A stretch of 48,335 bases of DNA, from NCBI RefSeq assembly GCF_947498175.1, contig NZ_CANMJB010000012.1:1-48335 (forward strand). The letters are read 5' to 3'. The stretch comes from an uncultured Algimonas sp. (GTDB taxonomy: Bacteria > Pseudomonadota > Alphaproteobacteria > Caulobacterales > Maricaulaceae). This document shows, piece after piece, positions 2,906 to 42,977 of the stretch. The notes under the pieces are model-generated. The model was not told the origin of the DNA, did not search any database, and saw nothing but the letters and a program-made list of their open reading frames with translations. The position numbers were made by a program, and so were the translations under genes. How positions within the stretch are numbered: position 1 is the stretch's first letter; each line of letters begins with the position of its first letter.

Positions 2906-3448
2906 ATGATCGACAGACGCCGATTCGCCTTGAGCAGCCTCGCCTTCGGAAGTTCCGCCATCGTCCTCACGGCGTGCGGCGCATCGTCCGCACCCGCCTC
3001 CCGGGCAACCCTTCAGAGAAAGACAGACGTCATGAGCGCATTAGACACCGACACCGACTGGGCCGAACTGACCAAGGCGGACTGGAAAGAGCGCCTGACC
3101 GAAGAGGAGTTCCACGTCCTGCGCAAGGAGGGCACGGAGCGCCCCTTCTCCAGCCCGCTCAACGACGAAAAACGCCCCGGCACCTTCGTCTGTGCCGGGT
3201 GCGGATTGCCTTTGTTCAAGACAGACATGAAATTCGATTCGGGTACGGGCTGGCCGAGCTTCTTCGACTATATAGACGGCGCGGTGGACACAAAGCGCGA
3301 CTTCAAGCTGATCGTGCCGCGCACCGAATATCACTGTGCGCGCTGTGGCGGGCATCAGGGTCATGTCTTCAAGGACGGGCCTGCCCCGACGGGTCTGCGC
3401 TACTGCAATAACGGCGTTGCGCTGGACTTCATCCCCGACGCTGCCTGA
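2906..3448 (+). CDS. msrB: Peptide-methionine (R)-S-oxide reductase, Tat-exported lipoprotein form
   Basis: MsrB reduces methionine-R-sulfoxide in proteins. Zinc cysteines form two CxxC pairs (C96/C99 and C144/C147), and the catalytic cysteine C167 lies in [11 protein letters not shown]. The usual resolving-cysteine position reads SGTGWPSF (Thr instead of Cys), so thiol recycling must use another partner. The N-terminus [15 protein letters not shown] has a twin-arginine motif, then a hydrophobic stretch and lipobox LTAC (C24). This suggests export by Tat and lipid anchoring, hence repair of envelope proteins. An internal ATG at 3032 ([10 protein letters not shown]) could give a cytosolic form, but GGAGAGA precedes the 2906 start. 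It stands alone, 72 bp after ubiA. Confidence 0.93.
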
Positions 3449-3565
3449 AACAGCGTTACCCATCCCTTAACCGAGGCTGCAATTTCACATAATTTCATGC
3501 TTGCCCGCAGCGTGGAGTCACCCCAATTATGGATCTATCGTTAGCCGTCCCATTGTGGGGCCGCG

Positions 3566-3595
3566 TTGAGAAAGGAGGTGTGATTTGTCTATCTT
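3566..3595 (+). promoter_or_regulatory. Sigma70-type promoter for the structured RNA
   Basis: TTGAGA (3566-3571) and TATCTT (3590-3595) are separated by 18 bp and are followed after 5-7 bp by the first base-paired segment of the RNA at 3601. The spacer holds AAAGGAGG (3571-3578), a strong Shine-Dalgarno-like word, which may instead serve a tiny TTG-initiated ORF at 3585 (see findings). Confidence 0.5.
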
Positions 3596-3600
3596 TTTTG

Positions 3601-3768
3601 AGGGGTCTGCCCAGAGCTGTTAGCTCAGCCTTTCGTAAACGCGAAACTGGGTAGGGTTTGCTCGCCGGATGCGTCCACAGAGTGAACCACAACGAAGCGG
3701 GCATGGTGTCCCGTAAGACCCAAACTTCAAAACGAGGCCCGCTGGCATTGTCGGCGGGCCTTTGTTTT
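3601..3768 (+). ncRNA. Putative structured small RNA with its own promoter and terminator, family unknown
   Basis: About 168 nt with no convincing protein. I can pair: closing stem GGGTCT (3603-3608) with AGACCC (3716-3721); CCCAG (3610-3614) with CTGGG (3647-3651), enclosing hairpins AGCT/AGCT (3615-3625) and TTTCG/CGAAA (3631-3646); the long stem GGTTTGCTC (3655-3663) with GAGTGAACC (3680-3688), capped by GGA-TGCG-TCC; and CGGG/CCCG (3698-3713). This is a multi-branched fold followed by a rho-independent terminator. Length and isolation would suit a 6S RNA, and an alternative rod-like fold using TTCGT/ACGAA (3632-3636 with 3692-3696) exists. I do not recognise 6S, tmRNA, SRP or riboswitch core sequences, so the family is left open. 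Confidence 0.6.
3736..3768 (+). terminator. Rho-independent terminator of the structured RNA
   Basis: GGCCCGC (3736-3742) pairs perfectly with GCGGGCC (3754-3760) across an 11-nt loop and is followed directly by TTTGTTTT (3761-3768). It lies 15 nt after the closing stem of the RNA on the plus strand. Confidence 0.85.
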
Positions 3769-3902
3769 ATCCGCCTTTCCAAAAAGTCATCTTTTCGGCC
3801 CATTTGTACCATATGGGCAATGTCTCTCCTATCTGGCCGCGCCTAGCAGGCACATGTCGCGCGAATCCCCGCGCTGCAGACCGTCGCGGTCGGAGTGAAA
3901 TC

Positions 3903-4322
3903 ATGTCGCCTTGGACATCCGCCATCAGCCTTCTGTTCGCCGCCACGCTCGCCGGCTTGTTCTGGCCGGCCGATGCCGCGCAGACACCGCTGCGGCCTGC
4001 CTCCGTAACGAAGGCCTCTATGACCCCGGTTACTGCGGCCCCGGTCATGGCCCGCGACATGGCCACTCAGACGGAGGATGTCGCCCTCGCCAATCGGTGC
4101 GTGCTGGACGGGATTGGCAAGGCCGACTGCCTTTGCGTCGTCAAGATCATGAAATTCGAGCTGCCGTTACGGACTTACCGCCAGGACGTCCGGGCTTATG
4201 TCAGACGCCAAGCGGGCTCGACCATACGTCCGGCCGTGCGAGACCTCGTCTCGGATGCATTGTTCACTGACCGTTGCGCCTCGGCCAACGATTTCTTCTT
4301 CCCCGGCCCGGCAGACCGCTGA
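3903..4322 (+). CDS. Small secreted protein of unknown function
   Basis: 139 residues starting at ATG 3903, chosen because GGAG sits 7-10 bp upstream and because residues 1-26 form a clear signal peptide (hydrophobic ISLLFAATLAGLF, cleavage likely after ADAA). The mature part has four cysteines, two of them in the segment CVLDGIGKADCLC, and two more conserved-looking positions (C in DRCAS). The Cys spacing suggests a small disulfide-stabilised periplasmic domain. I do not recognise the family. It follows the terminator of the structured RNA and precedes a YciI-like gene by 63 bp; no functional link is evident. Confidence 0.7.
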   Translation: MSPWTSAISLLFAATLAGLFWPADAAQTPLRPASVTKASMTPVTAAPVMARDMATQTEDVALANRCVLDGIGKADCLCVVKIMKFELPLRTYRQDVRAYVRRQAGSTIRPAVRDLVSDALFTDRCASANDFFFPGPADR

Positions 4323-6033: not shown

Positions 6034-6279
6034 TCGAACAGGTCTGGGTCCATCTCGGCACCGGCTCTTGCAGCTTTCGTCTTGCGTGCAGATCCAAGAA
6101 CGGCGAAACCGTTCGTCGCAAACCTCCCGCTCAGCAGATTTGTTCTAGAGGATAGAAGGGAAAAAAATCCGCCGTAAATCGAGTCGGTGTGTGGTGTGCT
6201 GGTCGCCTCTTTGTCCGCATACCCCGATGTGTCGGGGTTCAGCTCGTAGCCGCACAACCACGCTCGAGCCAGCCCGCCG

Positions 6280-6313
6280 CCTGGATCCCGACATCCGTCG
6301 GGATGAGCGGTGG
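6280..6313 (-). repeat. GGATCCCG palindromic module, copy
   Basis: TGGATCCCGAC-ATCC-GTCGGGATGA contains a perfect 8-bp inverted repeat (ATCCCGAC/GTCGGGAT). The outer words TGGATCCCG and CGGGATGA followed by a GGTGG match the palindrome at 19093-19128, so it is one more copy of the same module. Confidence 0.55.
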
Positions 6314-6381
6314 ATCAAAGGCTATCGTTTGTCTTACGTCGATCTGTCGTCACGGCTTGGCTTGCCCATCTCCCCGCAACC

Positions 6382-6470
6382 TCATCCCGGGCTTGGCCCG
6401 GAATCCGCCTTCCAGCCCTATCGGCTAGGCCAGCGGTCTGGTGATGGACTCCGGGCCAAGCCTGGAACGA
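6382..6470. repeat. Inverted pair of the CATCCCGGGCTTGGCCCGG module
   Basis: The sequence TCATCCCGGGCTTGGCCC at 6382 and its close inverted copy (6444-6470, reading back as TTCCAGGCTTGGCCCGGA) share about 21 of 25 positions and face each other across ~37 bp. Each copy is itself a palindrome (CCGGGC-TTG-GCCCGG). Together they could form a long cruciform or RNA hairpin. Similar modules sit at 6280 and inside the repeats at 18129 and 19086. Confidence 0.6.
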
Positions 6471-6826
6471 GGCCTGCAAAAGACACCGTCGCCAACACAT
6501 TCTCCCAGGTTTGTTGTCGTTCACACTCACGAGACGAGGGCGGGTTTGCCGCCACCTCTTGTGAACCTAACCTCGACCGAATTCAGGCAATAGGTGCCGG
6601 CACGAAAGGAGGATGGACGAGATGTCGCTCTGATGCCGATGTCCGGAAGACCGGACAGGCCTAGTTCCGACGCCGATCCGTATCCATCGCACAAATCATC
6701 CGGGCTTTCCCTACGCCAAGCCCCATCACCCACTTTTAGCCTCTTGCCCCTCCAGGGACGAAAGGGGCCGCGGACTACAAGGGCCATGTGTCGCAGACCG
6801 GGCGGCGGCAGGGGGTCGGACTCCCC

Positions 6827-8639: not shown

Positions 8640-8715
8640 TGGTACGCCCACACGGACTCGAACCGTGGACATCCTCATTAAAAGTGAGGCGCTCTACCAA
8701 CTGAGCTATGGGCGC
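8640..8715 (-). tRNA. tRNA-Lys (TTT anticodon)
   Basis: A cloverleaf on the minus strand: acceptor GCGCCCA/TGGGCGT (first pair G-T), D-arm word TAGCTCAGTTGGTAGAGC, anticodon stem CCTCA/TGAGG with loop CTTTTAA (TTT), and T-arm with GTTCGAGTC. The 3' CCA is encoded at 8640-8642. Confidence 0.95.
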
Positions 8716-42485: not shown

Positions 42486-42612
42486 CATCAATCCCGCGTT
42501 GAACTTTTGTTAGCTATAGTTCCGCGAACCTTAATAGACTGTGAGTCCTGTGGATAAGAGGATGTTTCGCTTTCGATTCAATGTTGTGGCTTGTGGACCG
42601 CGTCGGGAAAAG

Positions 42613-42977
42613 CGTCAGAGGGCCTGTAAGCCGGGTTCTGTCCGGCGGATTTCTCCGCCTGTGCGGCCATTCATCTGGGCGGGCCGTTACCGACCCGCTC
42701 ATGCAACCGACCCGGACGACATCGGCGAAACCCGACATGCGCCGTCCCTATTTGGTCTTGCTCCGGATGGGGTTTACCGTGGCGGCCTTCCTTGCGGTCG
42801 GCCCGGTGCGCTCTTACCGCACCCTTTCAGCTTTTCCGGGGACGAACCCCGGTAGTCTTCTCTCTGTGGCACTGTCCCTTGGCTCACGCCAGCCGGGCGT
42901 TACCCGGCATCCTGCTTCGCTGGAGCCCGGACTTTCCTCGGCACCCGAAAGTGACGCGGCCGCCCGGCCCTCTGACG
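42613..42977 (-). ncRNA. rnpB: RNase P RNA (type A)
   Basis: The catalytic RNA of RNase P, about 365 nt. The ends pair as P1 (CGTCAGAGG with CCTCTGACG). Universal segments on the minus strand include GAGGAAAGTCCGGGCTCC, CACAGAGA, GGTAAGAGCGCACCG, AGACCAAATAGG and, near the 3' end, ACAGAACCCGGCTTACAGG. The open frames overlapping it on the plus strand are spurious. It lies between the epoxide hydrolase (37 bp) and the mraZ control region on the same strand. Confidence 0.97.

Follow-up and report, generated by a model that had tools for sequence, protein, structure and literature searches.

The 48,335-nt stretch of DNA analysed here (the window) carries a gene for a structured RNA that belongs to no Rfam family, a stand-alone gene with the strongest support that a comparison of sequences can give, and we regard it as close to certain that a conserved RNA gene lies at this place. 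Across its relatives the fold has been conserved through many paired mutations, and an unfolded stretch resembling a ribosome-binding site has stayed nearly unchanged. Through this linker the RNA may act in trans on translation initiation, a mechanism that we put forward tentatively as our preferred reading and consider doubtful when taken by itself; the conserved RNA gene and such a mechanism, taken jointly, fall a little short of being probable. The predicted architecture runs from a 5′ hairpin (P1) through the linker to a helix (P6) that closes a branched core, made up of P5 (with P4 and P2′ inside it), P3a and P3b, and ends in an intrinsic terminator. The features are the following:

3481 to 3495, plus strand: AT-rich dyad of the putative promoter, AATTTCACATAATTT, placed where an UP element would sit
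3501 to 3506, plus strand: probable −35 box TTGCCC (TTGCCA, TTGTCA or TTGCAA in many relatives)
3525 to 3530, plus strand: weak candidate −10 box AATTAT, poorly conserved among relatives
3544 to 3564, plus strand: P1 hairpin, GCCGUCCCA-UUG-UGGGGCCGC, 8 pairs
3570 to 3579, plus strand: GAAAGGAGGU, a perfect Shine-Dalgarno sequence in the linker, whose GAAAG is also the 5′ strand of the alternative helix P2
3585 to 3623, plus strand: micro reading frame of UUG, 11 codons and TAG (TTG in 41 of 41 copies)
3603 to 3608, plus strand: 5′ strand of the closing helix P6, GGGUCU, covarying with 3716 to 3721
3610 to 3614, plus strand: 5′ strand of P5, CCCAG, pairing with 3647 to 3651
3616 to 3629, plus strand: P4 hairpin, GCUG-UUAGCU-CAGC, with 100% of alignment cells paired
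3630 to 3634, plus strand: CUUUC, able to pair with 3570 to 3574 (P2, hiding the Shine-Dalgarno sequence) or with CGAAA at 3642 to 3646 (P2′)
3642 to 3646, plus strand: CGAAA, 3′ strand of P2′ (CGAA is present in 36 of the 40 sequences folded)
3647 to 3651, plus strand: 3′ strand of P5, CUGGG, pairing with 3610 to 3614
3655 to 3688, plus strand: P3a arm, enlarged in the sub-clade of the window, its arms complementary in most copies
3697 to 3714, plus strand: P3b hairpin, GCGGGCAUGGUGUCCCGU, with all 5 counted pairs changed on both sides
3716 to 3721, plus strand: 3′ strand of P6, AGACCC, covarying with 3603 to 3608
3734 to 3762, plus strand: intrinsic terminator hairpin with loop GCAUUGU, followed by a T-rich run

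The original prediction described a self-contained structured RNA gene of an unknown family in a gene-free gap, and both parts of that description were borne out. The locus lies on contig C12 of a 2.85 Mb genome (G000), in a gap (3449 to 3902) between msrB, which ends at 3448, and a following gene whose start codon is at 3903. No supported protein gene occupies this gap, as the two frames listed there (105 aa on the minus strand, 62 aa on the plus strand) are not kept among relatives: a minus-strand frame of at least 80 aa crosses the RNA in three of the 13 loci of the genus, and the one at the window locus falls alone in a separate BLAST cluster. All 4227 Rfam families stay below their cut-offs in the RNA stretch, among them the 6S, alpha-tmRNA, SRP and riboswitch families for which a covariance search had been proposed; at E 10, positions 3440 to 3920 gave five sub-threshold matches, the best at E 0.33, and four of the five lie over the terminator. 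Elsewhere in the window are genes for tRNA-Gly(TCC), tRNA-Tyr(GTA) and tRNA-Lys(TTT) (489 to 690 and 8640 to 8715, minus strand), and at 6189 to 6664 the frames give repeat-like peptides, which leaves the impression of a dispersed alphaproteobacterial intergenic repeat.

A BLAST search with positions 3560 to 3780 found matches in 13 of the 18 genomes of the genus, the window's own included, and these 13 genus copies were used to build the first covariance model. By covariance model 41 of 137 genomes of the family carry the RNA, in one copy each and in seven of 19 genera, all at E 1.7e-25 or better; when the loci were fetched, 40 of the 41 matched model positions 1 to 168, and the remaining one (L095) is cut by a contig end. 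A second model (R2), run with strict filters on a draw of 398 genomes from 59 genera of the order, gave 23 matches, all in the same seven genera, and no copy outside the window's family. A search with laxer filters, run without a positive control, gave no match at E 1 in 32 genomes that had lacked an earlier match, and with the filters turned off no match below E 1.6 appeared in 18 ubiA loci of non-carrier genomes. In five loci of other genera in which msrB stands beside ubiA (L121, L129, L130, L132, L133), inspection by eye of the 420 nt after msrB revealed no RNA-like segment.

The inheritance of the RNA can be followed through UbiA, which is encoded two genes upstream. A tree was made from the 28 of 41 carriers with at least 240 UbiA residues on the fetched locus and from 18 loci without the RNA, and all 28 carriers fall into a single clade of 30 rows with support of 100/99. 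The two non-carrier rows inside this clade are G008, in which ubiA is present with no msrB behind it, and G051, whose contig stops 216 nt past the msrB match. Two other misses within carrier genera, G010 and G011, have no ubiA match either, and further negatives within carrier genera include at least G004, G005, G039 and G058 (from the laxer-filter search). The simplest reading is a single origin followed by a few losses or assembly gaps, with the family apparently limited to a single clade within the Litorimonas/Hellea group; its carriers include the named and cultured Litorimonas cladophorae KCTC 23968 (G002), which belongs to the window's genus, and Hellea sp. (G036), which belongs to another carrier genus (g7). 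As to a mobile origin, no match was found among 72,556 plasmid records, and viral contigs held no exact match to one 35-letter pattern, which fixes the spacing and AAAGGAGG and misses part of the family itself.

The fold is supported by covariation. In alignment A4, 28 named pairs are of standard type in 93.5% of 1127 cells, against 86.0% in shuffled alignments and 36.8–49.2% when the pairing is slid, and changes on both sides occur in 83 cells, where shuffles give 23.7, whilst two other measures do not rise above the shuffles (pairs changed on both sides, 11 vs. 9.2; further pair types, 29 vs. 27.0). A4 descends from models that contained some of these helices (P6 in R1, others in R2) and leans towards them, so P6 was also counted by sequence anchors alone. 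This helix is the stem 3603–3608/3716–3721 that had been singled out for a covariation check, and it withstood the check: pair 3607/3717 is of standard type in all 41 copies (C-G in 35, U-A in 6) against 35.9 in shuffles, and pair 3608/3716 in 37 of 41 (U-A in 29, C-G in 8) against 31.4, with pair 3606/3718 at chance level (34 vs. 32.4). Unguided mutual information over 40 distinct rows places two P1 pairs (3550/3558 and 3551/3557) and one P3b pair in its top three positions, and the top 15 include 3607/3717 of P6 and 3619/3626 of P4, with non-helical pairs mixed in. P1 is paired in 97.2% of cells with 3 pairs changed on both sides (40 sequences), P4 exchanges G-C for A-U at 3619/3626 in 5 sequences, and P3b is paired in 84.5% of cells, local misalignment notwithstanding. 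P5 would be a weakly supported helix: its CCC/GGG is invariant, and its outer pairs are standard in 35 and 24 of the 41 copies against 34.4 and 21.7 in shuffles.

A second stem put up for the same check, 3655–3663/3680–3688, stands in the window's sub-clade (three genomes, whose folds were read); the other copies have in that position an arm, mostly shorter, whose sequence is different but complementary. The arms of P3a vary between genera, with AUUAA/UUAAU, AAGA/UCUU, GCGU/GCGU, UCC/GGA and CCG/CGG recovered by a best-run search made without a control. Another helix, P3 (GGGU with ACCC), had been used in building R2 and was dropped because one of its pairs fails in 12 and another in 10 of the 41 copies, partly through misalignment, and because its bases are already accommodated in P6 and P5. 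A further helix, P6b (UUUUGAG with CUUCAAA), might form and shows no covariation, and RNAalifold run on A4 picks a different long-range pairing, between the linker and the 3′ end, in columns that are nearly invariant. The dinucleotide-shuffle z score of 3601 to 3768, terminator included, is −4.27, and that of the core without the terminator is −1.41 (median over 39 homologues, −1.44); most of the score thus belongs to the terminator, folding energy alone is weak evidence, and it is the covariation that shows the structure.

The gene would be a complete transcription unit, in which a promoter of its own, as we infer it, gives a transcript of ~230 nt that ends at the intrinsic terminator. The conserved block starts abruptly at 3544, and we predict a transcript start at ~3536–3544 and a length of ~225–235 nt, which moves the 5′ end upstream from the proposed position near 3601 and replaces the proposed length of ~165 nt. 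The promoter first suggested, TTGAGA-18-TATCTT, had to be given up: a scan gives one such site vs. 0.3 expected, but its −35 box occurs in two of 41 homologues and the site sits inside the conserved RNA, whose match begins at 3544. The likely promoter, judged from its sequence, is 3481 to 3530. Its dyad has the form GAAATTTCATAAAATTTC in several relatives, and comparable AT-rich blocks can be seen by eye upstream of many homologues; the pattern taken from the window site matches once in the window (≤2 mismatches) vs. 0.02 expected. The relatives' form followed by TTGC occurs once each in five of eight genomes, always at the RNA, and this exact pattern is absent from the other three, G000 among them. 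A regulon sharing the dyad was considered and rejected, an 18-mer (≤2 mismatches) having matched only the RNA locus in four of the five matching genomes (six searched), G017 having an additional weak site and G000 no match. Among the 39 homologues for which 70 nt upstream are available, the best TTG-led two-box site begins 38–43 nt before the RNA in 35 (the exceptions are L075, L076, L079 and L087), a count made without a shuffled control.

At the other end, the rho-independent terminator was correctly called, with one hairpin in the scan vs. 0.6 expected and a counterpart of 11–16 pairs and a T-rich stretch in 41 of 41 homologues. Its stem covaries widely, and its loop is AUACUGU in 32 of 41 and close to that in the others; such a loop, held constant while the stem changes, suggests that it has a use. 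We wrote a UACUG-type pattern after seeing the loops, so that it is fitted to them, and with it the terminator-like hairpins of the 41 sources divide into 30 near the RNA 3′ end and 6 elsewhere when they have the motif, and 10 near the RNA 3′ end and 18 elsewhere when they do not (overlapping hairpins counted apart). Further hairpin-like copies of the terminator kind lie just downstream in G009 (L023), G012 (L025) and G014 (L028).

The most conserved part of the RNA is the linker, GAAAGGAGGU-N4-6-UUG. AGGAGGU is present in 41 of 41 rows (as GAAAGGAGGU in 34 and GAGAGGAGGU in 7), a UUG follows the Shine-Dalgarno core at 4–6 nt in all 41, and UYUAUCU comes after the UUG in 39, L078 and L093 being different. 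The linker holds AAAGGAGGU (AGAGGAGGU in seven copies), AAAGGAGGU being the complement of the 3′ end that 16S rRNA generally has in bacteria. In the proposed mechanism the linker would present its Shine-Dalgarno sequence either to this rRNA end or to an RNA-binding protein, and an exchange of helices would gate it, P2 (CUUUC with GAAAG) being the closed state and P2′ (CUUUC with CGAAA) the open one. We advance this switch as a hypothesis drawn from modelled folds. P2 is paired in 96% of cells, and none of its pairs is changed on both sides. Of the 36 copies that have both helices, 28 give energies no more than 4.5 kcal/mol apart when either P2 or P2′ is forced, and relative to the free fold forced P2 costs 8–13 kcal/mol in six of the seven GAGAGG copies and 8.6–11.7 kcal/mol in L022, L076 and L077. 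Four copies (L069, L070, L085, L086) have no CGAA; an extra insert, hairpin-like by eye, follows CUUUCG there (CUUCCG in L086) and replaces CGAAA, so P2′ would be unable to form in them. P2′, P6b and a Shine-Dalgarno hairpin (AGGU with AUCU) all rest on nearly invariant bases, and for this reason covariation does not distinguish which of them, or P2, forms. In its fullest form, the reading is of a noncoding RNA that mimics a ribosome-binding site, in which the scaffold would display AAAGGAGGU and UUG, either for the 30S subunit or for a site-reading protein, could be closed by the helix switch, and would tune translation initiation globally in this clade; that whole picture we regard as fairly unlikely.

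The main rival to a role in translation initiation is an ordinary base-pairing small RNA, possibly served by a chaperone of the Hfq type, for which the linker, the P3a loop or the terminator loop (UACUG) would be the mRNA seed and the resemblance to a Shine-Dalgarno sequence incidental. This is a serious possibility, well short of probable, and it agrees with a stand-alone gene that ends in a terminator and has several conserved unpaired stretches; it would, however, turn a perfect Shine-Dalgarno core with a well-spaced UUG in every one of the 41 copies into a coincidence. Nor does the linker core have a long conserved antisense match: the only place in G000 with its reverse complement (≤2 mismatches) is the RNA itself, which makes a long antisense target unlikely in that genome, and the same search in eight genomes gave 58 matches, of which 8 are the RNA and 50 lie off the locus, vs. 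40 for a reversed control.

The UUG also opens the micro reading frame, and the RNA might on that account be the messenger of a 12-residue peptide, or carry a translated micro-frame whose translation would unfold P6, P5 and P4. An in-frame stop (TAG or TAA), which 40 of 41 copies have at one shared codon and the other (L091) one codon earlier, suits such a messenger, as does the presence of both the Shine-Dalgarno sequence and the UUG in every copy. The pattern of substitution speaks against it: variable sites number 4, 6 and 5 by codon position, a third-position bias was looked for over the 41 copies and not found, and most codon variants alter the residue, from which it would follow that the peptide is not the conserved thing. 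Codon 8, moreover, varies together with its P6 partner, and the frame overlaps strongly structured parts of the RNA. We consider a micro-messenger distinctly unlikely.

Two other explanations tie the RNA to its neighbours, which we compared by clustering with BLAST, picking genes as longest frames and checking one protein per cluster in Pfam. Among the 41 loci, the upstream genes as called include msrB in 32 and ubiA in 29 (Pfam SelR and UbiA), and the frequency of msrB is what recommends an origin by processing from the 3′ untranslated part of msrB mRNA. Against that origin stand the promoter-like block upstream of the core, described above, and the arrangement of several loci: L076 and L077 have their upstream gene on the opposite strand, a layout that favours a promoter of the RNA's own, and in six (L019, L025, L026, L078, L079, L094) the nearest upstream gene belongs to another cluster (c10). 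We judge such an origin improbable, and slightly more improbable still is a cis-acting leader, a riboswitch or attenuator, of the downstream gene. A leader would account for the terminator, the competing helices and the same-strand downstream gene found in many copies, but the first downstream genes come from unrelated families: MarR in many loci, sigma-54 in all eight g9 loci (L074, L080, L081, L083, L084, L087, L092, L093), in the window a gene with no Pfam match, and others besides. In six loci (L020, L022, L076, L078, L085, L094) a clustered gene running on the opposite strand comes first downstream, and all six g16 loci have an opposite-strand pseudouridine synthase, which in three of them is the first gene called. 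Downstream genes of such varied kinds, some on the other strand, speak against a leader that serves one fixed gene. In the g9 loci the RNA lies directly 5′ of the sigma-54 gene, and a ribosome hibernation factor gene then follows in seven of the eight.

A diverged housekeeping RNA would fit by size and single copy, but 6S, tmRNA, SRP RNA and RNase P RNA are all found elsewhere in G000, and this explanation can practically be dismissed. 6S RNA (RF00013), which the original prediction had kept as an alternative identity, is excluded, with no match at 3440 to 3920 even at E 10 and the genome's own copy at G000:C3:191780-191938 (55.6 bits vs. a cut-off of 46.4). Alpha-tmRNA (RF01849) has no match at the locus, lies on G000:C6 with 248.8 bits and was found in six of seven genomes tested; the bacterial small SRP RNA (RF00169) likewise has no match here, lies on G000:C4 and was found in seven of seven. 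The sole window match of RNase P class A (RF00010) is that RNA's own gene at 42611 to 42975 on the minus strand (295.3 bits).

Among known systems, 6S RNA is similar as a single-copy, stand-alone structured RNA of comparable size; its shape is a rod with one central bubble, whereas the window RNA has a branched core. The orphan structured RNA classes that comparative genomics has yielded in bacteria are similar as a general kind, having covarying structure and no known function. The ribosome-binding-site switches of mRNA leaders likewise place competing helices around a Shine-Dalgarno sequence; unlike them, the window RNA has no constant downstream gene and has a terminator directly 3′. In the literature searched we found no paper on a small RNA in Litorimonas or on an sRNA in Robiginitomaculum, and one paper on Hyphomonadaceae and riboswitches concerned, in its accessible part, methionine regulation. 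By analogy, and on the accessible part of its description, the nearest functional counterpart that we met in print may be CcnA of Caulobacter crescentus, a noncoding RNA of 182 nt that is sited at the replication origin, uses a CCCC loop and has been proposed to act on ribosome-binding sites (PMC8959179). CcnA as described there is likewise a stand-alone alphaproteobacterial RNA of similar size with a proposed action at ribosome-binding sites; the window RNA differs in sitting after ubiA-msrB and in itself carrying GGAGGU, and the locus and the CCCC loop of CcnA, in the accessible description, make it look like another RNA.

With its strong covariation, one copy in each carrier and inheritance along one clade, the new RNA family is a solid addition to the catalogue of RNAs. 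A fixed Shine-Dalgarno-UUG linker in an apparently non-coding RNA raises the question of whether it serves as a ribosome bait, as a micro-messenger or as a protein-binding site, and the 41 aligned copies make the family testable in the cultured Litorimonas cladophorae KCTC 23968.
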